Below the pieces are notes generated by a model. The model worked only from the letters and a program-made list of their open reading frames with translations. It was not told where the DNA came from and ran no database searches. This document shows positions 13,169 through 25,151 of a DNA stretch of 64,000 nt, piece by piece; the first letter of the stretch is position 1; each line of letters opens with the position of its first letter. The position numbers were made by a program, and so were the translations under genes. Origin of the DNA: Thermoplasmatales archaeon (GTDB lineage Archaea > Thermoplasmatota > E2 > DHVEG-1); the NCBI GenBank assembly GCA_020350825.1, contig CP070724.1, positions 718,910-782,909 of the forward strand, given 5' to 3'.

Positions 13169-13229
13169 TAATAAGCCAACTTGAATTTAATTTATTGAAT
13201 TATCTAAAATATCCAAAGAATCGTTACTT

Positions 13230-13267
13230 TTATATACTATGAGCGGTCAAGCAATAGCACGGATTAT
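13230..13267. repeat. 38-bp dispersed repeat, copy A
   Basis: This block matches 35271-35308 at 34 of 38 positions (begins TTATATACTATGA, then CGGTCAAGCA). In both places it lies directly downstream of the stop codon of a minus-strand gene ending in a membrane helix. It could be a shared 3' element or a remnant of duplicated DNA. A short frame (MSGQAIARIIF) exists on the plus strand, but the TATA-like start of the block is too close to its ATG for expression. Confidence 0.7.
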
Positions 13268-13280
13268 TTTTTAATATTAA

Positions 13281-13379
13281 TTATGAAGTTATCCATAGTA
13301 GAAAAACTATCAATAAGAAAGAAAGAATCAAAATTATGATAATTGTTTTATTTGAAAATTGATAAAATATAATTGGCAT
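13281..13379 (-). CDS. 32-residue single-helix membrane protein
   Basis: MPIIFYQFSNKT is followed by a hydrophobic helix (about residues 12-30, IIIILILSFLLIVFLLW) and a TAA stop. The main support is the near-perfect ribosome site GGAGGAGGA a few bases before the ATG, the same as that of the upstream 91-residue gene. The two genes are 27 bases apart and read the same way, so they form a small operon. With one helix and a short polar N-terminus it may be a membrane regulator or assembly partner of the larger protein; function unknown. The 38-bp repeat copy A begins just after its stop. Confidence 0.6.
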   Translation of the reverse strand: MPIIFYQFSNKTIIIILILSFLLIVFLLWITS

Positions 13380-13406
13380 TATTTTTCCTCCTCCAAATCT
13401 ACAATT

Positions 13407-13682
13407 TCATTTCTTTTTGTCCCATTTATCACGATTTGCTAAACCAATTGCTAAATACATTATGCCCAAAGCCATAAAGGCGATGCCAATTGCAGGATTT
13501 ACTGCTATCATAAAAACAACACCAACGGGTAACCATATTATCCCAACGTTAAAAAAGACTTGATAATTTGGTTCGCCCATTTTACCTTCTTTTTTCTTCT
13601 TAAACACTACTAGTGCTAAAACAATTCCTATTAAAACTAATATTGCAATTATTCCTATTGAAATCAATATCCATTCACTCAT
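13407..13682 (-). CDS. small integral membrane protein, three helices
   Basis: 91 residues. A first hydrophobic helix (about 4-27) ends in the charged loop KKKKEGKMGEPNY. Two further helices follow (about 43-62 and 64-82) and the tail is NRDKWDKKK. No enzymatic motif is visible. A strong GGAGGAGGA ribosome site precedes the ATG. Upstream at 13724-13747 is a promoter-like block shared with the next minus-strand gene at 13783, so the two transcripts may be co-controlled. Family not recognised. Confidence 0.75.
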   Translation of the reverse strand: MSEWILISIGIIAILVLIGIVLALVVFKKKKEGKMGEPNYQVFFNVGIIWLPVGVVFMIAVNPAIGIAFMALGIMYLAIGLANRDKWDKKK

Positions 13683-13723
13683 TTTTCCTCCTCCATTTTA
13701 TGATTTCATAACTTCTCCTTAGT

Positions 13724-13747
13724 TAAAAGCCTTTACTCCCCCTACTT
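13724..13747 (-). promoter_or_regulatory. promoter block shared with 14335-14357, copy 1
   Basis: Read on the minus strand, AAGTAGGGGGAGTAAAGGC then TTTTA lies upstream of the 91-residue gene. A near-identical block precedes the 174-residue gene. The trailing TTTTA(A) can serve as a TATA box, making the purine-rich part a BRE/upstream element. Confidence 0.45.
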
Positions 13748-13782
13748 ATCCCCTTAGGGAAAAAATAAAACTTTGAAGCGGA

Positions 13783-14307
13783 TTAAAGATTAAAAAGCTC
13801 ATAATAAAAATCAAATGTGTCTTTTCCTGCTGGTACTTCTTCAATATCTTCTTGTTCTCTAATTGCTTTCTCTAATGGTTCAACATATTTTTTGAGAAAT
13901 TTTATTGTATCTTTTTTAACCATCAATTTTACAAACTTATCATCAACTGTATTCTGCTTTCTTAAGGAGTGAATTGTATAAAGATAATGGGAGAATCTTC
14001 TCCTGTAACTATCTATTTTATTGGCAGTATGTGTTGCGATGTATCTATTTTTTATAAAATCATCTACAGCCCTTTTAGTATTATTATTATGGTTTATATA
14101 CCATTTTCTGATTTCTTTCAAACCTATTATCATATCCTCATGTGCATAAATCTCTCTTAGTTTGATGATATTCTGTGACCACATGGCTTTTTTTATCTGC
14201 AAAGCGTTATACCATCCGTTTATTATAGTTGCAAAAATAGCAGCAAGTGCAATAACTATCGTGGTATAGGATAATATTAATTCAACTTCCACAATATTTT
14301 CTCCCAA
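13783..14307 (-). CDS. membrane-anchored helical protein of unknown function
   Basis: 174 residues: an N-terminal transmembrane helix (about residues 10-30, SYTTIVIALAAIFATIINGW), then a charged, mostly helical cytoplasmic part with many aromatic residues (MWSQNIIKLREIYAHEDM, RRFSHYLYTIHSLRKQ). This layout of one helix plus a helical domain with conserved Trp/Tyr resembles DUF4760-type proteins, but I cannot confirm the family. It is probably monocistronic with the promoter at 14335-14357. Confidence 0.7.
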   Translation of the reverse strand: MGENIVEVELILSYTTIVIALAAIFATIINGWYNALQIKKAMWSQNIIKLREIYAHEDMIIGLKEIRKWYINHNNNTKRAVDDFIKNRYIATHTANKIDSYRRRFSHYLYTIHSLRKQNTVDDKFVKLMVKKDTIKFLKKYVEPLEKAIREQEDIEEVPAGKDTFDFYYELFNL

Positions 14308-14334
14308 ATAATAATTTGTAATCTACTCCCAATA

Positions 14335-14357
14335 TAAAAACTCTTACTCCCCTACTT
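14335..14357 (-). promoter_or_regulatory. promoter block shared with 13724-13747, copy 2
   Basis: On the minus strand it reads AAGTAGGGGAGTAAGAG then TTTTTATATT, that is, the same purine-rich block followed by a clear TATA box, about 30 bases upstream of the ATG at 14307. The rest of 14358-14567 is AT-rich with no gene that I can support. Confidence 0.5.
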
Positions 14358-14567
14358 TAACCCTGTAACTCCCTATGTTTGCATCGAAAACCTATGGTTC
14401 TAAGGAGTTATTTTTATTTATGGCTTATTTAAAAAAAGAATTAGCCATTATGTCATAATAGTTGATATAAAATCATTAACATTTTGTTAAACCTTGTTAA
14501 GCAACAACCTTTACGTTGTAAAATTAAAAATCAAGCTAAATAGTCAATGGTAAATAGATATTTTTTT

Positions 14568-14592
14568 GGTTTTTAGCCCAGAAGAATCAGCA
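14568..14592. repeat. dispersed motif copy a, at the 3' end of an MNKKIL paralog
   Basis: GGTTTTTAGCCCAGAAGAAT then CAGCA. It ends one base before the complement of the paralog stop codon at 14594. Further copies are at 19280, 19965 and 22832, with degenerate relatives at 18160, 18771 and 33190. Confidence 0.85.
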
Positions 14593-14593
14593 A

Positions 14594-15196
14594 TTAGCAA
14601 TTATTCGGCATTAATGTGAGCATTTTTGCTATAATAACAAAAGGTAAAAGTAGTAGAATTTCTACCAAAGCTTTTAACCAGAAAATTATACATTCCCGAA
14701 CATCTAATTGTAAGGTTCTACAGCATTCATCAGCATCTGTAAATCCCGTTGGTGGGTCTACCACGTTTCTTTTTAAATTAAACTGATTTCTTTTAAAAAC
14801 TTCTGGTGTGTACTTAAGATGATATAAAAGTTGTAATTGTTCAAGAGTAACATCTTTCCCAACCGTTTTCCTTTGATATATTCATTTTATTGCAGAGTTT
14901 ATAAATTTATTGAAGGTTTTATCATCCATCTTACAAATCATATCTATTATTTTTTGAATTCTAGATGTTTCACTGTCTCGTTTTGGAATTGATAAAATAT
15001 TTTCTTTTCCTTTTCCTACATAATCACTAGTCAAATCCTTGCTTTCTTTTCCTATTGCTTTGCTACTTCTAATGTTGAATAACGGAGAAACCTTCACATC
15101 AGATTCAATACTTCTATATCCAATTACAGATGTGAATGATACAAGAATAAGTATAACCACGGATACAATACTACATAATAGTATCTTCTTATTCAT
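14594..15196 (-). pseudogene. MNKKIL-family exported protein broken by an in-frame TGA
   Basis: From the ATG at 15196 the frame encodes 104 residues (MNKKILLCSIVSVVILILVS...) and meets TGA at 14882-14884. The same frame then continues without a stop for another 95 codons to TAA at 14594. The continuation (LEQLQLLYHLKY, later a C-terminal membrane helix and a final Cys) aligns in register with the intact paralogs at 19306, 19991 and 20634, where the TGA position falls at an Arg-Leu pair. A single CGA-to-TGA change would explain the break. It begins three bases after the beta-helix gene at 15200, so both share one transcript. A truncated 104-residue product is possible, and so is readthrough, but decay is the simplest reading. 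Confidence 0.75.
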
Positions 15197-15199
15197 ATT

Positions 15200-16390
15200 C
15201 TATCGCACTCTTATGTCATTGGATTTTAGAGCAGGTCGCCAATCAACATCTAAGGTAGGTATCAATCGTTGTAAAAGGGTTGGTTTGAATCCCCAGATAA
15301 GAACGGGAAGCAGCCTAGGTCTGTTCCAAAAATTACCATTCCATTTATTATTTGAATCAACTGAAAAGATACCCTTAAATCTTCGTAAGAAATGAGAATA
15401 TTTGAAATTGTTAAATGAAATATTATTGCATGATGATTTTATGAACATTATATTTGCTTGGGTTTCAAAAGAGTTTTCCGAAATCGTGTTATATCTACTA
15501 GAGAAAAGGAGTGCGTCAAGTCCGTTATCCGAAAGAGTATTACCTGAAATTGTGTTATTGTTTGAATTTGCAAGGAGTATACCTCCCAAAAAGTTATTCG
15601 AAAACACGTTGTCTAAGATATAACAATTTAATGAATTTAGTATTTGTACGCCAATAATCGTGTTAGATAGTTCTAAATTCTCAACAGTAATATTGTTACA
15701 ACCCATAAGAATTACCTGTCCAGCATCATCAATGACTTCATCAGAGGTATTCTCAAAATACACCAGTGGTTTACCATTAACTGTATTATTATAAACAAAA
15801 TTCGGATATGCAGTTAGTATTGCAAAGTAATTAAATGAAATCATATTTAGACCACAATTGAAAAAAGAGTTATTAGAAAAGGTGTTGTAAACCGAATCAC
15901 TAAGAGTGATACCTCCAAATCCATAAAAAGATTCATTTGATTTAAAAATATTACCAGTAATAGTATTGTTATTTGTAACTTCCCGTGAATATGAATCTAT
16001 TGTAATGCCACTGCCATTTTGTATTGTAAAATCGCTAACGCACACCTCAGAAACAACAATCGAAATCCCACTATCATTTATAATCGTGTTATCTTTGTCC
16101 TCACCAGTTAATCGAATAGATTTGTTAATTTTAAGCCTCTCATCTAAATTATACCTTCCAATATATACAAAAACCGTGTCCCCATCACTCGCATTATCAA
16201 TAGCATCCTGAATCCGTGTGTAGTTCCCGGGACCACTACCTCCAACGTAAAATATATTACCATTGTAGAAAGTTGGAACAGTAAGTTTCTTTTCAACTAT
16301 GTTTCCAGTTGAAGGAATAACACTCACACTAACAAACAAAAATATAACAGCAACTACTACTCCTTTCTTGATGAGGTTATTATGTTCCAT
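15200..16390 (-). CDS. exported right-handed beta-helix protein, NosD-like
   Basis: 396 residues. A signal segment of the NNLIKKGVVVAVI type (residues 4-30) is followed by GNIFYVGGSGPGNYTRIQDA and AIDNASDGDTVFVYIGRY, the entry motif of the NosD/pectin-lyase-like family. Many N-N-T-I-x-x-N repeats form the beta-helix coils. It is expected outside the membrane, binding or cleaving a polymer, or serving as a surface protein; NosD itself handles copper, but no such ligand set is evident here. The mature C-terminus (WNGNFWNRPRLLPVLIWG) is typical of archaeal members. Promoter and leader are shared with the gene at 21244. It heads the transcript that includes the broken MNKKIL gene. Confidence 0.88.
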   Translation of the reverse strand: MEHNNLIKKGVVVAVIFLFVSVSVIPSTGNIVEKKLTVPTFYNGNIFYVGGSGPGNYTRIQDAIDNASDGDTVFVYIGRYNLDERLKINKSIRLTGEDKDNTIINDSGISIVVSEVCVSDFTIQNGSGITIDSYSREVTNNNTITGNIFKSNESFYGFGGITLSDSVYNTFSNNSFFNCGLNMISFNYFAILTAYPNFVYNNTVNGKPLVYFENTSDEVIDDAGQVILMGCNNITVENLELSNTIIGVQILNSLNCYILDNVFSNNFLGGILLANSNNNTISGNTLSDNGLDALLFSSRYNTISENSFETQANIMFIKSSCNNISFNNFKYSHFLRRFKGIFSVDSNNKWNGNFWNRPRLLPVLIWGFKPTLLQRLIPTLDVDWRPALKSNDIRVR

Positions 16391-16441
16391 AACTTTCCCC
16401 CTCTAAGTATTAATAATGCACTTCTGATATATTTGTTTATC
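16389..16441 (-). promoter_or_regulatory. conserved promoter/leader, copy 1
   Basis: On the minus strand: GATAAACAAATATATCAGAA (with TATA-like AAATATAT), then GTGCATTATTAATACTTAG and the ribosome site GGGGGAAAG just before the ATG at 16390. The block recurs almost unchanged at 22173-22226 and, without a gene, at 22583-22627. Confidence 0.7.
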
Positions 16442-16503
16442 CCTGCTAGAAGGTAGCATTTATATAATATGTCATCCATGAGAATTTATTGGGAGGTTAA
16501 AAA

Positions 16504-16980
16504 ATGAGAAAGTATTTGTTTAGCACAATTTTCGCAATTGGAGTAATAATCCTAATTGTTGGGGCAGGTATTGTATCAAGTATAAGCGTTAAGAAGAATA
16601 ATGATTCTTCTTTACATATAGATTCAGCTGAAAGAATTATTGTAAATTATAACAATATTGATGATGATAATAGACATTTTTATTTTTTCGTTAGATTTAA
16701 CATTACAATATATAGAAGAATTTTTTGTAATTACTGTATATTTGATATTCAAGGTCTGGAATTCGTGCCATTTTTCACTGCAATAAAACTGGACGCCTCA
16801 TCTGGCATCGTTGTAGATGTAACAATATGGAAAATGAATGGTCAAAAATTAGAATTCTCCCTTAGTAATAGAGTTGTTATATTTGCTTTACAGTTAAAAA
16901 ATGTTGAAACTAATTTACCCAAATTTGATACCGTTTCTAAGGGTTATTTTGAAGGGCGAGCATCATTTATAAAATTTTAA
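16504..16980 (+). CDS. exported or membrane-anchored protein of unknown function
   Basis: 158 residues with an N-terminal hydrophobic segment (about 4-29, YLFSTIFAIGVIILIVGAGI) that is a signal peptide or anchor. The rest is a beta-rich domain containing a single close pair of cysteines (CNYC, near residue 78). A TATA box (GCATTTATATAAT, 16455-16467) and ribosome site GGGAGGT precede the ATG at 16504. It diverges from the beta-helix gene. I do not recognise the family. Confidence 0.72.
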   Translation: MRKYLFSTIFAIGVIILIVGAGIVSSISVKKNNDSSLHIDSAERIIVNYNNIDDDNRHFYFFVRFNITIYRRIFCNYCIFDIQGLEFVPFFTAIKLDASSGIVVDVTIWKMNGQKLEFSLSNRVVIFALQLKNVETNLPKFDTVSKGYFEGRASFIKF

Positions 16981-17018
16981 GGGCAAATGTAATTTAGAGT
17001 TTCAGTATATTTAGATGA

Positions 17019-17049
17019 AAAAATCTTGTTACAAATATTTATATATCAC
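17019..17049 (+). promoter_or_regulatory. promoter of the 105-residue gene, shared element
   Basis: AAAAAATCTTGTTACAAATA runs into the TATA box TTTATATATC. A matching element (GAAAAATCTGTTACAAAAAT then TTATATACC) lies at 18786-18814, and a decayed form at 33202. The shared part covers the TATA box and its upstream flank, suggesting the same activator or TFB paralog. Confidence 0.55.
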
Positions 17050-17082
17050 AGCGTCTATGAGAAAATGAAAGGGAGGTGAAAA

Positions 17083-17400
17083 ATGAGAAAGAAAATATTA
17101 TTTGGAAGTTTGTTGGCAGCTTTTCTTATGATGATGTTGCCAACAGTATCTGCAATTGAATCCGATGCAATGAAAGAAACAATGAAATCATTGCAACCAA
17201 TAATAATTCCAGATATTGATGTTGATGAGTTGAGGTTACAATATCAAAGCGGTTCTGAACCATGGTTTTTTTTGATTTTCATACTTAAACAAATCCTTAA
17301 TATATTGCGTACGATTAAATTTACAGCTTTAGCTTTATTTACAGTTCTATTTGTAATTATTAAAAGAATGTTTGGCAACACCAACGCTACGATAAGCTAA
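17083..17400 (+). CDS. small exported protein with C-terminal membrane helix
   Basis: 105 residues: a signal peptide ending near VSAIES (about residue 24), a short acidic/hydrophobic linker (QPIIIPDIDVDELRLQYQ) and a C-terminal helix (about 62-94). The product would be a small protein anchored at the outer face of the membrane by its C-terminus. A GGGAGGTG ribosome site lies six bases before the ATG and the promoter is the shared element at 17019-17049. Function unknown. Confidence 0.7.
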   Translation: MRKKILFGSLLAAFLMMMLPTVSAIESDAMKETMKSLQPIIIPDIDVDELRLQYQSGSEPWFFLIFILKQILNILRTIKFTALALFTVLFVIIKRMFGNTNATIS

Positions 17401-17405
17401 AACCA

Positions 17406-17428
17406 TCTTCTTTTCTTTTTTTATTCTT
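17406..17428 (+). terminator. T-rich terminator after the 105-residue gene
   Basis: TCTTCTTTTCTTTTTTTATT directly follows the stop at 17400. Archaeal RNA polymerase terminates at such U-tracts without needing a hairpin. Confidence 0.5.
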
Positions 17429-17647
17429 TAAAATATTTATTACCAATATTTTTTGGTTTTTTCCAAACATTTGCCCACTATTTATAAACTCCAATTTTAA
17501 TTGTTTTTAACTTGTTTGTAATTCGTTTTTAAGTCATTTTTTTATAGTTCAGATATAGTAAAGGTGTGAAATAACAAAATGGAGACACTCGGCTTTGAAC
17601 TCCACTATAAAAGCAGAAGTAAAAAATAAAAAAGGAGGTGAAAATTA

Positions 17648-18007
17648 ATGAAGATGAAAATTCTAGCAATTTTTATTGCTATTGGTATGTTATTATCCGT
17701 TGGAATTGCTATTGCAAAAAGAGGCGGGGAAGGAGGACGTGGTGATGGTCCTGTAATATACGTAGAGAATCAAGGATTATTTTATGATTCAATTGTCACA
17801 GCGGAACCTTTACCTTATAATATACACAATGCCCATACATTTCAAGAACTATATATAGGTCCAATGGGACTAACAACTATGTATGGTCCTGGAGACACGC
17901 AATATAATGGCGGTAGGTGGTGGTTTGATGTGAATGGAAACGATATTATGGATCCAGAAGGAACAGATCACTACTTTGGATGTCCCTTGCTTGGTCCAGG
18001 ATATTAA
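17648..18007 (+). CDS. small exported protein of unknown function
   Basis: 119 residues. A signal peptide (about residues 1-22, MKMKILAIFIAIGMLLSVGI) precedes a basic/glycine-rich stretch (KRGGEGGRGDGP). A compact domain rich in Gly, Tyr and Trp follows (GGRWWFDVNGNDIMDPEG), whose DVNGNDIMDPEG is reminiscent of calcium-binding D-x-N/D-x-D loops. A TATA box (ACTATAAAAGC, near 17607) and AGGAGGTG ribosome site precede the start. It ends at a clear hairpin terminator. The calcium suggestion is inference from one short motif. Confidence 0.72.
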   Translation: MKMKILAIFIAIGMLLSVGIAIAKRGGEGGRGDGPVIYVENQGLFYDSIVTAEPLPYNIHNAHTFQELYIGPMGLTTMYGPGDTQYNGGRWWFDVNGNDIMDPEGTDHYFGCPLLGPGY

Positions 18008-18029
18008 ATGGACATGTAATTTATTAAAT

Positions 18030-18081
18030 ACTCAGATTAATAATTATTTAAAAGTTAATCTGAGTTAATTATTTTTTATTT
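18030..18081 (+). terminator. hairpin plus T-tract terminator
   Basis: An 11-bp perfect inverted repeat, ACTCAGATTAA (18030-18040) and TTAATCTGAGT (18055-18065), encloses a 14-base AT-rich loop. It is followed by TAATTATTTTTTATTT. It sits just after the stop at 18007. Confidence 0.7.
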
Positions 18082-18180
18082 ATGGCTTTGCCCTAAAAAT
18101 CAATTTTGCTCCTAAAGTCGGTTTTTTGCTCTTAAAATATATATTTATAAGGAGAGGTTGTTTTTAACCAGAAGAATCTG
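18079..18180. repeat. long regulatory repeat, orphan copy
   Basis: This stretch (TTTATGGCTTTGCCCTAAAA ... ATAAGGAGAGGTTGTTTTTA ... AGAAGAATCTG) resembles 18693-18795, which leads into the gene at 18851. Here no plus-strand gene follows: the DM13 gene on the other strand ends at 18202. It may be a promoter whose gene was lost or replaced. It includes the core AGAAGAATC motif. Confidence 0.5.
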
Positions 18181-18201
18181 AAAGCTGCATCAATGTTGAG
18201 A

Positions 18202-18648
18202 TTAGATAATAAAATCTAATTGGGCATATCCAAATAACACACTAAATGGTTCACACCAGACAAGTACGTTTTTGTATTCATTAAGCTCAATTTCAGTGTT
18301 AATATTATAATTCATGTTCCCCTCTATTGCTTTTAGTTCTCCCAAGCTGATAAAATCTGTTGCCTCTGTATCTCTTGATAGGTATACATATAAACCAGGG
18401 CCATCGTCTGTTTTAAAGTTCTCAAATCGCAATACAAATGTATTATTTACCTCAAGAATCTGTGCTGTCCCTGATGTTGGATGATCTCCTGATTGAAATT
18501 CACCAGTTGCATAAATTATAGCTCCAGAGAGTTCATCTTGATGTAGTTCAGGTTTAACAAAATCTTGCGGAATTAGATATAATAAACTCAGTGTAATAAT
18601 TATTCCAATAATTACAATTATTATTATTATTTTGTTTTGATCCTTCAT
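18202..18648 (-). CDS. membrane-anchored DM13-domain protein
   Basis: 148 residues. An N-terminal transmembrane helix (about 7-26) anchors an extracellular DM13 domain (about 40-148). Family-typical parts are GTAQILEVNNTFVLRFENF, GPGLYVYLSRD, SLGELKA and especially VWCEPFSVLFG with the conserved C132. DM13 domains have been proposed to take part in redox or electron transfer and occur in animal and bacterial surface proteins. It stands alone between plus-strand genes; a promoter is likely in 18649-18690. Confidence 0.88.
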   Translation of the reverse strand: MKDQNKIIIIIVIIGIIITLSLLYLIPQDFVKPELHQDELSGAIIYATGEFQSGDHPTSGTAQILEVNNTFVLRFENFKTDDGPGLYVYLSRDTEATDFISLGELKAIEGNMNYNINTEIELNEYKNVLVWCEPFSVLFGYAQLDFII

Positions 18649-18692
18649 TTCAATTTTTAATTAATTTTTTATCTTTTATGATTTTCTATCAA

Positions 18693-18814
18693 TTTATAGC
18701 TTTGCTCTAAAAGTTTGTTTTGATTTAAATGTCTTGGTTTTGACCTAAAAGTCTATAATTATAAGGAGAGAGTGTTTTTGGACTAGAAAAATCTGTTACA
18801 AAAATTTATATACC
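18693..18814 (+). promoter_or_regulatory. promoter region of the gene at 18851, long repeat copy
   Basis: The upstream part matches the orphan copy at 18079-18180 (TTTATAGCTTTGCTCTAAAA, later ATAAGGAGAGAGTGTTTTTG). Its 3' part, GAAAAATCTGTTACAAAAAT then TTATATACC, holds the TATA box and matches 17019-17049. The gene start with GGGAGGT lies 36 bases further on. Confidence 0.5.
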
Positions 18815-18850
18815 AAGGGGTAGATGAGAATTGGAAGGGAGGTCAATAAA

Positions 18851-19249
18851 ATGAAAAGGAAAATAATAGGTGTTATTGTTTGTACGTTGTTTTTGATAAC
18901 TACAGTATCTTTAACAGAAGCATCAAAGCTTAATGATGATGTAGACGTTAATATATATGCTAGTTTTTTTGGAAATGACATTGGGTTTGGCATTACAGTA
19001 GAGATAATGAATAACAAAAGTGAGAATGTTACTGTTTTCGTTAATTTATCATTTGATTATCTTCTCAGAAATAATTGGGACTATACTTATGATTATAATT
19101 TTACCGCACCGCCAAAAATTCGTAGTGGTTCCAGAATTAACACTAGAATGAGAGGGATTAAACTCATTTCAATAACAGCTGAAGCGGAAGATAAAACAAT
19201 ATCGAGACAGGGCATTGCTATTAGTAAACTCATGATTTTCACTGAATAA
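18851..19249 (+). CDS. exported beta-rich protein of unknown function
   Basis: 132 residues from the ATG at 18851, which has GGGAGGT nine bases upstream. An upstream in-frame ATG at 18824 lacks a ribosome site and would put a charged stretch before the signal peptide. A signal peptide (about 1-23, KIIGVIVCTLFLITTVSL) is followed by an Asn/Asp-rich beta domain (GFGITVEIMNNKSENVTVFV) that resembles a small Ig or CARDB-like fold. Several N-x-T/S glycosylation sites are visible. Its promoter belongs to the shared set at 17019 and 18786. Confidence 0.7.
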   Translation: MKRKIIGVIVCTLFLITTVSLTEASKLNDDVDVNIYASFFGNDIGFGITVEIMNNKSENVTVFVNLSFDYLLRNNWDYTYDYNFTAPPKIRSGSRINTRMRGIKLISITAEAEDKTISRQGIAISKLMIFTE

Positions 19250-19279
19250 TTGATATTGCTAATTCATAAAAATGGTATT

Positions 19280-19308
19280 GGTTTTTAGCCCAGAAGAATC
19301 AGCATCTA
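19280..19308. repeat. dispersed motif copy b
   Basis: GGTTTTTAGCCCAGAAGAAT followed by CAGCATCTA. The last three bases are the complement of the TAG stop of the MNKKIL paralog at 19306. Confidence 0.85.
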
Positions 19309-19926
19309 ACGAGGAGAGTAAAGAGGTGGACAAACCACATCTGAGGTAGCAGGATAACAACCAAAAAGACTCGTAACAAATTGAAGTATAGAACCAACAA
19401 AATCTCCCCAGGTATACAAAATTTTTATTATTATATCGAGAATGTTACATCCAGGAAACCAATCACATGAAATATACCAACCAGTTTCAGGTTTTGGATT
19501 ATTATTAGTGTCATAATGCTTTATATCATTTGGTTTTCTCATTATATTGTTGAGAATTTGTAATGCTTCTGAAGTTTCTTTAGCATCCAACTTCTCTTGG
19601 TATTTCAGTTTAAGAACAACTCTTACAACTATCTTGCTGAATGCTCTATCACTCATTTTACTAATGATGCCAATAGCCTTCTGAATCTGTTCTATTTTTT
19701 TCATTCTGCTTGAGAACTGTATATTAGTTTGCTCTCCATGTCCTAGATAATCTGTAGTTATGTCCTCTTGTCCTTGTCCTATTGCTCTCTTTGTTCTGAT
19801 ACCAAACAATGGGGAGTTTATAGCAGAAGTAGATTTAACACTATCATATCCAACGACAGAAGTAAACGATACCAGTATAAGTATCACAACTGCTATGATA
19901 CTACCAACGAGTATCTTCTTATTCAT
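19306..19926 (-). CDS. MNKKIL-family exported/membrane protein
   Basis: 206 residues. The N-terminal segment MNKKILVGSIIAVVILILVS is nearly identical across the family. Then come the conserved SPLFGIRTKRAIG, DITTDYLGHGE, an amphipathic helical section (QIQKAIGIISKMSDRAFSK), the motif YISCDWFPGC with two cysteines, a C-terminal hydrophobic helix and a Cys-containing tail. The layout suggests a protein held at the outer face of the membrane at both ends, with cysteines that may pair or bind a metal. Family function is unknown. It is the last gene of the minus-strand run that starts at 22176, with a possible promoter of its own (TATA-like CATATATAG near 19944). Its leader ATGAGGGAAGGCT is shared with the next paralog. 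Confidence 0.78.
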   Translation of the reverse strand: MNKKILVGSIIAVVILILVSFTSVVGYDSVKSTSAINSPLFGIRTKRAIGQGQEDITTDYLGHGEQTNIQFSSRMKKIEQIQKAIGIISKMSDRAFSKIVVRVVLKLKYQEKLDAKETSEALQILNNIMRKPNDIKHYDTNNNPKPETGWYISCDWFPGCNILDIIIKILYTWGDFVGSILQFVTSLFGCYPATSDVVCPPLYSPR

Positions 19927-19964
19927 AGCCTTCCCTCATATTTCTATATATGTTCTGATATTTA

Positions 19965-19993
19965 GGTTTTTAGCCTAGGAGAATCAGCGTCTA
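19965..19993. repeat. dispersed motif copy c
   Basis: GGTTTTTAGCCTAGGAGAAT followed by CAGCGTCTA. It ends in the complement of the stop codon of the paralog at 19991 and lies between two paralogs. Confidence 0.8.
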
Positions 19994-20608
19994 AATGGCA
20001 CAATCTGCAGTTTGACAGACGGGATGATAGGGGCTACAAGTAAAAAGATCAATTGTTAATGGACGTAATACAATCATTATTATAACAAGTGTAACTACAA
20101 GAGCCAAGTTTAAAATGTTTAATACATAACATACTGCCTTCCAACGACATGAATAATATTCACTAGTTTCAGGTACGGAACTATTCTCCCCGTCATAATA
20201 CACCATAACATTTGGATTTTCCCTGATATAATGGAGAACCTGTAATATATCTGATGTATCTTTACTATTCGTCTGTCTTTGGCTTTTTATGTGAAGAATA
20301 ATCCTATCAAATAAGTTACTGAATGATTTATCATCCATCGTCCTAATGATGTCTATACCCTTTTGAACCTGCTCAGCTCTATGTATTCTACCTGTTAAGT
20401 GTATATTGGTATCCTCTCCGTGTCCTAGATAATCTGTTGTTATCTCCTGTTGTCCTTGTCCTATTGCTCTATTCGTTCTGACATCAAATAAAGGAGAGTT
20501 TAGAACAGATGCAGACTTGATACTACCATAACTAACGACAGATGTAAATGATACACCAATGAGAATGGTAACTCCTATGATACTACCAATGAGTATCTTC
20601 TTATTCAT
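19991..20608 (-). CDS. MNKKIL-family exported/membrane protein
   Basis: 205 residues, closest to its neighbour at 19306 (shared NSPLFDVRTNRAIGQGQ, TDYLGHGE). It keeps the N-terminal hydrophobic segment, the helical middle (EQVQKGIDIIRTMDDKSF), a YYSCRWKAVC cysteine pair in place of SCDWFPGC, a long C-terminal helix and a Cys-rich tail (DLFTCSPYHPVCQTADC). Only 25 bases separate it from the upstream paralog and its leader ATGAGGGAAGGCT matches that of 19306, so the pair arose by tandem duplication including the leader. Function unknown. Confidence 0.78.
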   Translation of the reverse strand: MNKKILIGSIIGVTILIGVSFTSVVSYGSIKSASVLNSPLFDVRTNRAIGQGQQEITTDYLGHGEDTNIHLTGRIHRAEQVQKGIDIIRTMDDKSFSNLFDRIILHIKSQRQTNSKDTSDILQVLHYIRENPNVMVYYDGENSSVPETSEYYSCRWKAVCYVLNILNLALVVTLVIIMIVLRPLTIDLFTCSPYHPVCQTADCAI

Positions 20609-20633
20609 AGCCTTCCCTCATATATTTCATATA

Positions 20634-21209
20634 CTAACAACATGGCTTTCCTGCAATTGATTGGCAACTTATTAGCTCTGTAAAAAAATGAAGTATATCA
20701 GCCAAAATAAATATAATAGTTAAAATAAGATTACATCCTGGAAACCAATCACATGAGAACTTTTCAGTAGTTTCAGCTTTAGGAATATTCTTTGGGTCAA
20801 AATACTTCATATCATTTTGATTTTCTCTCAAATAATAAAGGTTCTGTAATGTTTCTGATATTTCTTTACTAGTCATTTGCTCTTGGTTTTTTAGACGGAA
20901 AATAATTCGTGCAACAAATTTACTGAATGCTTTATCATCCATATAGTTTATGATGTCTATCGCCTTTTGAGTTCTAGATGTTTCACTTTCTCGTTTTGGA
21001 ATTGATAAGACGTTTTCTACTCCCATCCCAATATAATTAGAATCAATATCTTTCCTTTCTTTTCCTATTGCTTTGCTACTTCTAATGTTGAACAAAGGAG
21101 AAACCTTCACATCAGAACCTACGCTTCTATATCCAATTACAGAAGTGAATGATACAAGAATAAGGATTATCACAGATAATATAGAACCTAATAGTATTTT
21201 CTTATTCAT
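20634..21209 (-). CDS. MNKKIL-family exported/membrane protein
   Basis: 191 residues, closest to the broken copy at 14594: both share SDVKVSPLFNIRSSKAIGKE and LSIPKR-SETSR. Conserved parts are the N-terminal hydrophobic segment, the helical middle (QKAIDIINYMDDKAFSKFVA), SCDWFPGCN, a C-terminal helix and a terminal CC. It follows the 310-residue exported protein by 34 bases with a GAGGTG ribosome site, mirroring the beta-helix plus MNKKIL arrangement at 15 kb. Confidence 0.78.
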   Translation of the reverse strand: MNKKILLGSILSVIILILVSFTSVIGYRSVGSDVKVSPLFNIRSSKAIGKERKDIDSNYIGMGVENVLSIPKRESETSRTQKAIDIINYMDDKAFSKFVARIIFRLKNQEQMTSKEISETLQNLYYLRENQNDMKYFDPKNIPKAETTEKFSCDWFPGCNLILTIIFILADILHFFTELISCQSIAGKPCC

Positions 21210-21243
21210 ATTGATTATACACCTCTAATACCATAAATCGTCC

Positions 21244-22176
21244 TTAAGGCTGAACCTCAACTGTGAAATATTCAGATTGAGGATCTCCATGTAATTCAGG
21301 ATTATAATAATAATATGGGGTGAAAGAAATTATAATCTGTTCACGACCCGTGAAATTTTCAGGAGGCATGATGAACAAAGAAACCTTTTTCACTTCTCCT
21401 ATATCCAAAACTGTTTCAGGTTGGATATAAACCCACCAATCAGGAGAAGGAATATCAATAACTTCAGATTTAACCAAAGTTAAACCATTAGCCAAACTTT
21501 CCATTGTGATATTTTTTTCTACCATTTGCCCTTGTGGTATCTCTATATAATTACCCTCTGGTGTTACATCAATTACTGGCAGATAATCTGGCACAAGCGG
21601 GAACTCCTCCTCACTCTCTAAACCATGTATCCAAGTCAGAAAACCAAAACGTCCTTTTACAGAATCAGATACCCCCACTATTTTATAATATGATATTTCA
21701 AAAGCAGGCGTCATAGGATCTAAAAAAGTAATACTGATAAATGGATTTTCTTTACTTCTCTCCCATTCTGTACTAATATCGAAGTGTAACCTACTACCGT
21801 AAGGAAATTGAATTTCAGCACATTCAGGGACGTCTTTTATAGATAAATCAACGATATTATTACTATAAACCTTCCATATATATCCCCAACGTTCTATAAT
21901 ATGGATTATAATATCGGCGAACATACCAGAAACCTTATAGCTCACATTAAACGGAAAGAAGTATATTCCAAATGGTTTTATCGGTTCGAGAAAATCATCT
22001 AGATTGAAATCAAACTTTAGGTGCCCTTTTAAACCAAATAAGCCAAGAGGTTCCTTTTGAATATCATCTATTGGAGCAACCTTTGAAGTAATACCAATCG
22101 GTATACAAGAAAGCCCTATGAGTAAGAGTATAACAGCAACTACTACTCCTTTCTTGATGAGGTTATTTCTTACCAT
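21244..22176 (-). CDS. exported protein of unknown function, operon leader
   Basis: 310 residues. The signal segment (MVRNNLIKKGVVVAVILLLI) is nearly the same as in the beta-helix protein at 15200 and the two share promoter and leader. The mature part has a hydrophobic/aromatic first half and a C-terminal Ig-like half (VDIGEVKKVSLFIMPPENFTG is close to NEW1/Ig-like bacterial surface domains). It heads the run 21244, 20634, 19991, 19306. I do not recognise the first domain. Confidence 0.78.
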   Translation of the reverse strand: MVRNNLIKKGVVVAVILLLIGLSCIPIGITSKVAPIDDIQKEPLGLFGLKGHLKFDFNLDDFLEPIKPFGIYFFPFNVSYKVSGMFADIIIHIIERWGYIWKVYSNNIVDLSIKDVPECAEIQFPYGSRLHFDISTEWERSKENPFISITFLDPMTPAFEISYYKIVGVSDSVKGRFGFLTWIHGLESEEEFPLVPDYLPVIDVTPEGNYIEIPQGQMVEKNITMESLANGLTLVKSEVIDIPSPDWWVYIQPETVLDIGEVKKVSLFIMPPENFTGREQIIISFTPYYYYNPELHGDPQSEYFTVEVQP

Positions 22177-22226
22177 AACTTTCCCCCTCTATGTATTAAT
22201 AATGCACTTCTGATATATTTGTTTAT
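22173..22226 (-). promoter_or_regulatory. conserved promoter/leader, copy 2
   Basis: Same block as at 16389-16441: TATA-like AAATATAT within GATAAACAAATATATCAGAA, the leader AAGTGCATTATTAATAC, then a GGGGGAAAG ribosome site before the ATG at 22176. Confidence 0.7.
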
Positions 22227-22582
22227 CTGTCTCCACTATTGAATATAGCTGTACTTTATAGATATGATAAAAGGTATTTTATTATTATAAGGGGAGATAC
22301 TTAATTCCCTTTTTACATTTTACAGTAATGGGGGGAAGGAAGGGATAACACAAGGGGATTTAAATATGAATGATTTCATTATGAAACCCTTCCCTCTTTT
22401 CTCCACATAATCATATATTTTGGATTATTTAAATTTTACTATACGAATATGTATGTAACAGATGTAACAATAAAGTTGCTTTTTTCAGTTATAAAATGTT
22501 CTATTGAGGAATATTGTGAAAGGGGAAGGATTTGAGGAACGGAGGAATTAAATGAAAAATTCCAATCTCAAAACGCATAATC
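22227..22582. other. AT-rich stretch with no supported gene
   Basis: No convincing frame on either strand. A 14-codon frame at 22366 follows a purine-rich stretch but is too short to support. An ATTATAAGGGGAG stretch near 22285 resembles the ATAAGGAGAG part of the regulatory repeats at 18.1 and 18.7 kb. It may be the remains of a gene that the orphan promoter at 22583 once served. Confidence 0.4.
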
Positions 22583-22627
22583 CCCTTTCAATATTAATAA
22601 TGCACTTCTGATATATTTGTTTATCTA
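22583..22627 (-). promoter_or_regulatory. conserved promoter/leader, orphan copy 3
   Basis: The TATA-containing part and the leader (GATAAACAAATATATCAGAA, GTGCATTATTAATATT) match copies 1 and 2, ending at GAAAGGGG. The ATG that follows opens only a 25-codon frame with no signal segment. This looks like a promoter left behind by gene loss. Confidence 0.6.
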
Positions 22628-22663
22628 TGGTTTTTCCCTCCTTATTTACATACTAGAACATAG

Positions 22664-22815
22664 AACGAAAAGTATATAAGAGAATTAATAATAGTTTTTA
22701 TTAGAGGCGTAAGATTACTTTGGGGGACTAATTCTTATATTTCTTTCCTTTAAACCTCTCTTAATAATTAAATATGGTATTCTCTTACGTCTCACACCCC
22801 CATTCTTTTCTGTTT
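22664..22815 (+). ncRNA. candidate small RNA, locus 1
   Basis: A strong promoter (CGAAAAGTATATAAGAG, 22666-22682) lies about 29 bases before GGCGTAAGATTACTTTGGG (22706-22724, part of a 21-base block starting at 22704). That block is identical in the predicted transcript at 33.3 kb. There is no reading frame of note. The transcript could fold as an H-type pseudoknot: GGCGTAAGA (22706-22714) with TCTTACGTC (22783-22791), and GGGGG (22722-22726) with CCCCC (22797-22801). Termination is likely in ATTCTTTTCTGTTTATTT just after. Transcription and folding are inference; the shared promoter and block are seen directly. Confidence 0.45.
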
Positions 22816-22831
22816 ATTTACTGCCAATTTT

Positions 22832-22860
22832 GGTTTTTAGCCCAGAAGAAACAGCATCTA
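22832..22860. repeat. dispersed motif copy d
   Basis: GGTTTTTAGCCCAGAAGAAA followed by CAGCATCTA. It lies 22 bases beyond the stop of the truncated paralog at 22883. Confidence 0.85.
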
Positions 22861-22882
22861 AAGTCGGTATTTTGACCTACTC

Positions 22883-23147
22883 TTAACAACAATTGGTAGG
22901 ATAATTAGAACAACTTATTTGACCCGAAATCCAAGCAACTATATAGACAAGTATATCGGCTAAAAGGGTCCAAATCGTAAAAATTATACATATAGGAAAT
23001 CCCCAACATGTAAAATATTCTAAAGTTTCTAAAGGACTATCCTTCGTGTCGTAATATTTCATAATATTTGGATTTATTCTTATACTTTTGAAAGCTAATA
23101 ATATATCTGAAGTTACTATATCATTTAACTGCCCTTGGTTTTCACAA
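22883..23147 (-). pseudogene. 3' fragment of an MNKKIL-family gene
   Basis: The minus-strand frame reads ENQGQLNDIVTSDILLAFKS, then INPNIMKYYDTKDSP, a Cys pair (TCWGFPIC), a C-terminal helix and a CC end. It therefore matches the C-terminal half of the paralogs. The N-terminal half is absent: upstream the frame meets stops and no MNKKIL segment is found before the gene at 23264. It is a 5'-truncated relic, and the fifth family member in the window. Confidence 0.75.
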
Positions 23148-23263
23148 CTTTAATTAACATTTTTTTACTTAAAAATCATAAAAATCAAATCGAACCAGCA
23201 AATCTGGCTTTGTATAGTTATTTTAAGGAATTGAAAAAGAAAAAAGAGGGTTGGTGAGCTACT

Positions 23264-24325
23264 TTATAATCCCAGCACACACCTTAGTATTGGGAACATT
23301 TGTGGGTGTTGCTCAAAGAATCTTAGGAATAACAGGGTCAAGTTAAATATTCTGTTTCTTGGCATGGTGACTTCCAGAGATGCTGTCACTATAGCACCAT
23401 ATTCATCCCTGAGTTTAACTTGGATAATATAATCTCCTTTTTCATCCCAGGTATGAGATGCACAAATGTCTTCTCCAGATATATAGGGGCCCAGCCAGCT
23501 ACTGTTGGTTCCATCTCCCCAATCCCAGAAAACCCAAAGCTCGTCTCCATCTGGATCTGTAGCATTGATAATACAATAGGTATGTTCTACACCTACTTTG
23601 CCTTTGGTTGGGCCATCTATAGTTGGTGTTTCAGGTGGTGAGTTATCCCTTCCATACGTTTTGAAGCACGTATCCCATGTAATGGGATCATCACGTGCTT
23701 GTCCACCGAGGTTAACCCGTGTTTCAACACTATTCGAACTGGATAATGTAGATTTGTTGCTCCATGTACTACCATCATCAATGGATATCCATGCACATCC
23801 ATGGGGATAAGATGTGGAAATATTGTTGGCACCCCATCCATAAAAGTTATCAGTAATATTATCAGTATAAGAAACTATGTAATAAGTCTGACTTGTAGTA
23901 ACCATTATATCGTCAAAATCAATTTCTACCCAACCAAATTCTTCAGTTGGAACTTGTGCTGGTTCTGTATTTGTTAATGTTAGATCTGACCCATTTAACT
24001 CTTCTCTTATTGCTAAGACATAAGGATGCGTCGCTGTTGAGTTTTTACCTATTAATAGTTCAACCCTTGTTAGAATTTCTTTTGTTGGTATAAATGATTG
24101 AGCGGCTTGAACATTAATTGGGTTTTCTGGTACCGGGACTTGGCCAACAGGTAGAAATGCATCTGTTGTCATTACAGCTTGGGATTGGTCTAACTCATCG
24201 CTGAGTGATGCTGTACCTGTTTTATAAACTAATAATTGGCTATTATTGTTCGCGTTTAATGCAACGGCTTCAAGTCCATTTAGGACTAAAAATCCCACTA
24301 CTAATAGTAGTAATATTTTTTTCAT
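23264..24325 (-). CDS. exported PKD-domain protein with conserved C-terminal tail
   Basis: 353 residues. A signal peptide of the MKKIL...LGAVA type (residues 1-23; shared in form with two C25 peptidases at 35603 and 39392) precedes a jelly-roll-like domain (about 60-215, VQAAQSFIPTKEILTRVELL; GWVEIDFDDIMVTTSQTYYI). A PKD domain follows (about 232-318, VFWDWGDGTNSSWLGPY). The end, PRNRIFNLTLLFLRFFEQHP then QMFPILR, is a hydrophobic-basic tail that I recall from many PKD proteins of related archaea. It may act as a sorting or anchoring signal. The promoter at 24361-24378 is palindromic. Confidence 0.85.
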   Translation of the reverse strand: MKKILLLLVVGFLVLNGLEAVALNANNNSQLLVYKTGTASLSDELDQSQAVMTTDAFLPVGQVPVPENPINVQAAQSFIPTKEILTRVELLIGKNSTATHPYVLAIREELNGSDLTLTNTEPAQVPTEEFGWVEIDFDDIMVTTSQTYYIVSYTDNITDNFYGWGANNISTSYPHGCAWISIDDGSTWSNKSTLSSSNSVETRVNLGGQARDDPITWDTCFKTYGRDNSPPETPTIDGPTKGKVGVEHTYCIINATDPDGDELWVFWDWGDGTNSSWLGPYISGEDICASHTWDEKGDYIIQVKLRDEYGAIVTASLEVTMPRNRIFNLTLLFLRFFEQHPQMFPILRCVLGL

Positions 24326-24479: not shown

Positions 24480-25151
24480 TTATATTCGCTTGAAACCTCT
24501 TTGAAAAAATTGTTTAAGTGATATAAGCATGCGGTCACGTCTATAATCAACTGGCATGGCATTTCCCTCACCCCATGTTTTTTTCTTGTTTATTTCTGAA
24601 AGAATAGTATCAATAGTTATATCGGTTGAATCCACAGTTGTGTAAGCATATCCCACATACAACAGATCATGTGAGTCACTACCTCCAGTGCCGCCAAGGT
24701 CGAATTCTTTTGCTACCTGTGCTGTTTTTATATTAGTCTTTGGAAGGCTACAGCTGTTATATACTTCTATTGCTGGTATTTTTGAATAATTTTTTTTAAG
24801 TTTTTCCTTTTTGATACCTGACATATTTCTAAAAAGATGGGGGGCTACCGGTATACCGCCTACATCAATAATTATTTCAACAGTCTCCTCAACAGAAAGA
24901 TCTTTAGGAATATCTTCTTTTACATTTAGGCCCAGCATGTGTCCGTCTGCAGTTGATATTTCTATACCTGGAATAACAATGAAATCTTTGGGTGCAACTT
25001 TTAATGCTTTAAGACCACCTTCAACGGTATTATGATCAGTAATAGCCATTCCATGAAGTCCTTCCTTCTTTAGTGATTTAATTATATCTCGAGGACTTCC
25101 TATGCCATCATCTGAATATTGTGAATGAATATGTAAATCCAATTTTAACAT
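24480..25151 (-). CDS. PHP-domain metal-dependent phosphoesterase
   Basis: 223 residues. The PHP signature is plain: DLHIHSQYSDDG near the N-terminus, ITDHNTVEG, a Glu in PGIEISTADGH and the C-terminal GGTGGSDSHD. These His/Asp/Glu residues bind two or three metal ions for phosphoester hydrolysis. Stand-alone PHP proteins of this size include nucleoside 3',5'-bisphosphate phosphatases (TrpH/YciV type) and histidinol-phosphatase-like enzymes; the substrate cannot be fixed here. Monocistronic, cytoplasmic. Confidence 0.9.
   Translation of the reverse strand: MLKLDLHIHSQYSDDGIGSPRDIIKSLKKEGLHGMAITDHNTVEGGLKALKVAPKDFIVIPGIEISTADGHMLGLNVKEDIPKDLSVEETVEIIIDVGGIPVAPHLFRNMSGIKKEKLKKNYSKIPAIEVYNSCSLPKTNIKTAQVAKEFDLGGTGGSDSHDLLYVGYAYTTVDSTDITIDTILSEINKKKTWGEGNAMPVDYRRDRMLISLKQFFQRGFKRI

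Follow-up and report, generated by a model that had tools for sequence, protein, structure and literature searches.

The region described here is part of a 64,000-nt stretch (the window) of the 2.32-Mb contig of G000, an archaeon from an uncultured genus of Thermoplasmatota, and it contains several members of a gene family for predicted exported proteins, the MNKKIL (hereafter MN) family. It is bounded by the gene for ribosomal protein L11 (12692–13168, plus strand) and a PHP-type gene (24480–25151, minus strand; family assigned by eye). As the preliminary description of this DNA had reported, there are five MN copies, all on the minus strand between positions 14594 and 23126. Three are intact and arranged in tandem (19306–19926, 206 aa; 19991–20608, 205 aa; and 20634–21209, 191 aa), each being identified by its open reading frame (ORF) and by the family profile; one is interrupted after codon 104 by an in-frame TGA, beyond which it is open to NNC* (14594–15196); and one is truncated at the 5' end (22883–23126). 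Two further minus-strand genes encode exported proteins that we denote leaders. Leader 1 (15200–16390, 396 aa) is a NosD-type beta-helix protein (PF05048, E = 4.6e-13), and leader 2 (21244–22176, 310 aa) has relatives of 77–83% identity at 1620 kb as well as in G004 and in G002, two of the four congeners (G001–G004) used for comparison. The bodies of the two leaders are unrelated, but they are preceded by a common 104-bp block of 93% identity that comprises a putative promoter and the signal peptide, in agreement with the earlier claim of a shared signal segment and promoter.

Two short repeats recur around these genes. E1 is a promoter-like 31-mer, AAACAAATATATCAGAAGTGCATTATTAATA, and E2 is a 20-mer, GATTCTTCTGGGCTAAAAAC, that is found downstream of MN genes. 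On the minus strand, E1 is located upstream of leader 1 (16408–16438) and of leader 2 (22194–22224), and an orphan copy (22592–22622) has no long ORF downstream. The window includes four copies of E2, likewise on the minus strand: 14569–14588 (an exact match), 19281–19300 (a match to the 20-mer), 19966–19985 (between two MN genes, with two mismatches), and 22833–22852 (one mismatch). The orphan promoter-like element and the repeated regulatory blocks noted previously are confirmed.

The distance between the L11 and PHP genes is 11.3 kb in G000 vs. 0.8–1.4 kb, on a single contig, in all four congeners, where the orthologs of the two flanking genes are 89–94% and 83–92% identical, respectively. 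Alignment to the empty sites of G004 and G002 delimits a species-specific insertion of 9.96 kb (13171–23126) that leaves the L11 gene outside. Both junctions were taken from the G004 alignment, in which they abut within a few bases, and the right one coincides with the start of the coding match of the truncated MN copy, the profile match reaching at most 20 bp beyond. The adjacent gene for an exported PKD-domain protein (23264–24325, minus strand; PF18911, E = 4e-9) occupies the same gap in G002 and G004 and is therefore ancestral and outside the insertion; in the other two congeners, the gap harbors, by eye, a small exported gene in one and a regulator-like gene in the other. The interval from 13230 to 24325, originally described as a single island, thus consists of the 9.96-kb species-specific insertion plus one ancestral gene.

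Local expansion of the copies, which had also been proposed, is not supported. The three tandem MN genes are only 42–51% identical to each other and are not sisters, each grouping in the tree with copies from other parts of the genome (the internal supports are moderate). The blocks that make up the insertion find their best DNA matches at different loci, with identities of 86% in G003, 93% in G004, and 83% in G002, and, within G000 itself, of 100% (over 99 bp) at 1180 kb and 90% at 1849 kb. The match of leader 1 to G003 (L235, 86%) stops at the 3' end of the leader. Given that the blocks match different loci best, the 10 kb look as if assembled from dispersed cassettes. Near the left junction, the 99 bp at 13244–13342 are identical to positions 1179972–1180070 of G000, where the identity ends at a masked stretch, and appear to be a recent copy.

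The profile built from the window copies yields 47 to 50 matches in G000, depending on the threshold; as some matches are pieces of one gene, the number of MN genes is about 45, spread over about 25 places in the genome. Intact ORFs account for 29 of the 47 matches, and the remainder includes pseudogenes. The same profile gives 13–26 matches per congener and 7–8 in the genus g12, and the remaining relatives that were searched have few matches, if any; the named records that carry the family are metagenome-assembled genomes (MAGs) of Candidatus Thermoplasmatota. The members have in common a signal helix, the motifs SPLFxxR and YxGxG, and, at the C-terminus, a hydrophobic stretch with cysteines on either side. 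By hydropathy, most intact MN proteins are predicted to have a signal helix and a C-terminal membrane segment, and the 206-aa copy of the window passes for the signal helix only. Searches against Pfam and NCBIfam gave no match at the cut-off, with sub-threshold matches only, and the sequence comparison with solved structures returned matches at the chance level only. Judged by its sequence, MN is an unregistered family of exported proteins. A longer relative of 302–306 aa is present in g12 (L282:747–1652 and L283:1392–2309) and carries a series of cysteines at regular intervals (CNITSG..CQITSQPICQITTQPIC) ahead of the membrane segment.

In G000, E1 is present in 27 copies with up to three mismatches (33 matches for the longer leader-block query), and E2 in 56 copies compared to a single one for the reversed-pattern control. 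When copies on the strand of the MN match are counted, 28 of the 47 MN matches have an E2 copy no more than 300 bp downstream (0.2 expected, with a maximum of 3 in 300 rotations), and 24 of the 47 have an E1 copy no more than 3 kb upstream (0.8 expected, maximum 6 in 300 rotations). E1 occurs without mismatch in G002, G003, and G004 and was not found in G001 or in the 32 genomes from outside the genus that were searched for it. For E2, there are 4–19 copies in the congeners and one copy each, with three mismatches, in two other relatives. Downstream of E2, a TATA-like stretch and the start of the next MN gene are found in tandem arrays, and a different conserved tail elsewhere. Two candidate identities of E2 were rejected, namely, that of an attC site, the RYYYAAC..GTTRRRY core being found around 0 of 47 copies, and that of a structured RNA (fold z about −0.3); an Rfam search of the window from 13 to 25 kb gave no match.

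Several observations on these repeats concern places outside the MN cassettes of the window. E1 has two forms that differ in three adjacent bases in the middle, AAG, which dominates in G000, or TTC, which dominates in G002 and G004; the two forms could correspond to two regulators or two subsets. A TTC-form copy (G000:646216–646244, L098) is located directly ahead of an ORF that was interpreted as coding for a radical-SAM-type enzyme, which indicates that E1 also occurs at genes other than exported ones. At two other places (G000:230027–230084 and 1314248–1314320), E1 is followed by a similar stretch (ATCGGG..TCTCAGCACA) and no long ORF on the same strand. The E2 copies at G000:136950–136969 and 1387036–1387055 are followed by the same sequence, and the first adjoins a tyrosine-recombinase remnant with a stop.

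Comparison of whole units between genomes revealed mosaics. The leader on contig C88 of G004 is 94.5% identical to the leader at 1384 kb in G000, but the match stops 37 bp into the MN gene, and the MN protein of C88 is 76% identical to the one at 1660 kb vs. 36% to the one beside the 1384-kb leader, that is, the partner has been swapped. MN genes of G004 and G002 are 94 and 92% identical, respectively, to the G000 gene at 1848801 from nt 115 onward, whereas their first part is closer to other members. On contig C96 of G004, three tandem leaders are 86–88% identical to G000 genes at 388, 1620, and 585 kb. Two members of the family suggest an exchange of bodies: at 1386308, the MN start is fused to another exported sequence, and at 584747, only the MN signal segment is present. 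The 71 distinct ends of homology include four at a distance of at most 20 bp from an E2 edge (0.4 expected) and seven equally close to an E1 edge (0.3 expected). Signs of a larger rearrangement are also found near MN genes. Sequences that are neighbors in G001 and have 93 bp between them on contig C7 of G004 lie 179 kb from each other in G000, where MN genes are located close to both of the broken ends; the MN copy at 1209666 breaks off at roughly the point where the ancestral sequence starts.

The family comprises two subfamilies with different modes of turnover. Subfamily II, which has a conserved C-terminus of its own, forms 1:1:1 ortholog groups in G000, G001, and G004, is syntenic at its main locus of three genes at 70–80 kb, and shows dN/dS values of 0.16–0.31 over whole genes. 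In contrast, subfamily I consists of species-specific clades, including one of 10 genes found only in G000 (support 99/99) and one rich in G001 genes, with only two clear pairs that resemble G000–G004 orthologs. When the MN loci of the congeners were compared with the stretches retrieved around those of G000, the flanks of most subfamily I loci were unlike any of them. Paralogs in species-specific clades, pseudogenes, and loci missing in relatives (the empty sites at L11 and at 1816 kb) are what is expected of birth-and-death evolution, and the single-copy, stably syntenic state that the preliminary description had named as a refutation does not apply to subfamily I. At the genome scale, the proposed birth and death of cassettes is supported by the 47 matches, the species-specific clades, the mostly non-syntenic loci, the empty site, and the partner swaps, but not as an expansion in place.

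One MN gene is the cargo of an integrated element. This 6.7-kb element (G000:1816757–1823455, L057) encodes a phage-type integrase (PF00589) and is flanked by a 15-bp direct repeat, TTTACAAAAAGTATA, and its site is empty in G001 and G004; the element thus combines the integrase, terminal repeats, and empty site that characterize tyrosine-recombinase elements. In G003, the same gap contains about 2 kb of other sequence, and there is no tRNA at the site. Exported genes, small ORFs, and a weak match to the cold-shock domain are also found within the element. For four of the seven tyrosine recombinases of G000, the distance to an MN gene is at most 3.5 kb (P ~ 0.004 with the limit set, after viewing the data, to 4 kb).

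For the other genes of the insertion, the inventory of the preliminary description also proved correct, and the analysis adds detail. At the left end, there are two minus-strand ORFs for a small membrane protein (13407–13682, 91 aa) and a membrane-associated protein (13783–14307, 174 aa), neither of which matches a family above its cut-off. Blocks upstream of genes at 13681–13754 and 14315–14408 recur at many places, so the genome seems to reuse several promoter-like blocks. Between leader 1 and the tandem MN genes, four small exported genes are located on the plus strand (16504–16980, 158 aa; 17083–17400, 105 aa, with copies of 78–90% DNA identity elsewhere in G000; 17648–18007, 119 aa; and 18824–19249, 141 aa, with a 93% match on contig C35 of G004 that ends at the edge of E2). 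On the minus strand, the gene at 18202–18648 encodes, as had been recognized, a DM13 protein (PF10517, E = 8.3e-21) with an N-terminal membrane segment; no family was found for leader 2 or for the remaining single genes examined. Of the known families, the NosD type is represented by leader 1, DM13 by one single gene, and PKD by the ancestral neighbor. Elsewhere in the window, a peptidase C25 gene (39392–41395, minus strand) is split into ORFs of 388 and 257 aa that cover positions 2–137 and 173–373 of the PF01364 profile; it adjoins two intact C25 genes and looks like a broken copy.

The insertion, the dispersal of the MN genes, their common elements, the mosaics, the pseudogenes, and the integrated element, all of them seen in sequence comparisons, are best explained by a family of exported-protein cassettes that are dispersed and recombine, for which the L11 insertion would be one recent, species-specific landing site; we consider this reading to have a probability of roughly 0.65. 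A typical cassette would consist of the E1 promoter, a signal segment, a variable exported leader, often of the NosD type, one or more MN genes, and then E2. Whole or partial cassettes would be copied and moved between loci, some as cargo of tyrosine-recombinase elements, and others would be re-paired by recombination within E1, the signal-peptide codons, and E2, swapping leaders, MN partners, and MN 5' ends. The copies would then decay through nonsense mutations or be cut at rearrangement junctions. The gap between the L11 and PHP genes, the gene content of which varies between species, may be a permissive site that, in G000, received a mosaic of several cassettes. In this scheme, E1 probably serves as a promoter, and E1 and E2 would be causes rather than correlates of the exchange. 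The C-terminal hydrophobic helix with its flanking cysteines likely anchors the MN protein, which we favor to be a membrane-anchored partner of the leader encoded beside it; both would be exposed at the cell surface, and selection for surface diversity may drive the turnover. That the leader and MN genes are actively re-paired in populations at E1 and E2, with the help of tyrosine-recombinase elements, such that a free-living sediment archaeon varies its surface from cell to cell in the manner of antigenic diversity, is a bolder proposition that we regard as unlikely.

Several points weigh against the cassette reading. The junctions of the L11 insertion show no direct repeat longer than 8 bp and no target duplication, and the insertion, unlike the 6.7-kb element, contains no recombinase (PF00589) and no terminal repeat; there is no PF00589 match within the window, the nearest ones genome-wide falling outside it, and no tRNA in the window that could have been a target. 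For a few loci of subfamily I, synteny is retained on one side or on both. The congeners are represented by MAGs, three of which are fragmented, and the breakpoint enrichment at E1 and E2 comes from 71 ends, several of which are not independent. The proximity of recombinases and MN genes was formally tested in G000 only, and inspection of the congeners indicated little or no enrichment. Finally, the AlphaFold models of the two subfamilies are helical but weak (mean pLDDT 68 and 61, pTM 0.32 and 0.29); the terminal helix is placed at 158–188 by such a weak model.

Among the alternatives, ordinary lineage-specific duplication followed by slow decay deserves the most attention, even though we consider it rather unlikely. 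Under this explanation, the common 5' and 3' sequences would be an inherited promoter and terminator that were kept by selection, without any special shuffling. The positions of E1 and E2 are indeed those expected of a promoter and an end signal, and prokaryotes commonly carry large paralogous families of exported proteins with pseudogenes. However, the leader and MN gene of one unit differ in their nearest relatives, MN genes are mosaic at the 5' end, tandem neighbors are not sisters, and an MN gene rides an integrating element. The existence of that element, together with the single clean insertion in an otherwise syntenic site, could suggest instead that the 10-kb block is one decayed mobile element, an integrative element or provirus remnant that arrived once with its genes as cargo. 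This is improbable: the block lacks an integrase, a replication gene, and terminal repeats, the closest relatives of its parts lie at various loci of the chromosome, and no MN homologs were detected in the IMG/VR, phage, and plasmid collections at the sensitivity used. An archaeal integron-like array, with E2 as the recombination site of a dedicated integrase, might be evoked by the gene–E2 units, which are arranged in tandem with the same orientation, and by the recombinases close to MN genes, one of which has E2 alongside. Considering that E2 has neither an attC core nor unusual folding, that the units are dispersed instead of forming one array, and that the integrated element uses a different 15-bp site, we judge this to be very improbable.

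A conserved 5' region and a signal segment precede divergent bodies in the Vpma variable surface lipoproteins of Mycoplasma agalactiae, and the MN cassettes likewise are a variable exported family with a shared 5' region ahead of divergent bodies. The Vpma genes are a multigene exported family that varies between genomes in connection with recombination (PMC2268961, PMC5634654). In contrast to Vpma, the MN genes are dispersed, most units have a promoter block of their own, there is no dedicated recombinase (PF00589) in the window, and the cassettes are known from the comparison of sequences. Integrons found in archaeal MAGs consist of gene units followed by a short repeated element (PMC9668308). 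The MN units share this organization, and some have tyrosine recombinases nearby, but they are dispersed, E2 has no attC-like core or fold, and no IntI-type integrase was identified, PF00589 being the only integrase domain searched. A literature search, the coverage of which was incomplete, found no described archaeal system of this kind.

Our analysis defines an unregistered, predicted exported family, the cassettes of which have an unusual layout, in archaea about which little is known. With one subfamily that is stable and another that shuffles rapidly, the genome provides an internal control, and the short repeats and partner swaps are handles for asking whether archaea, like some bacteria, may create surface diversity by recombination.

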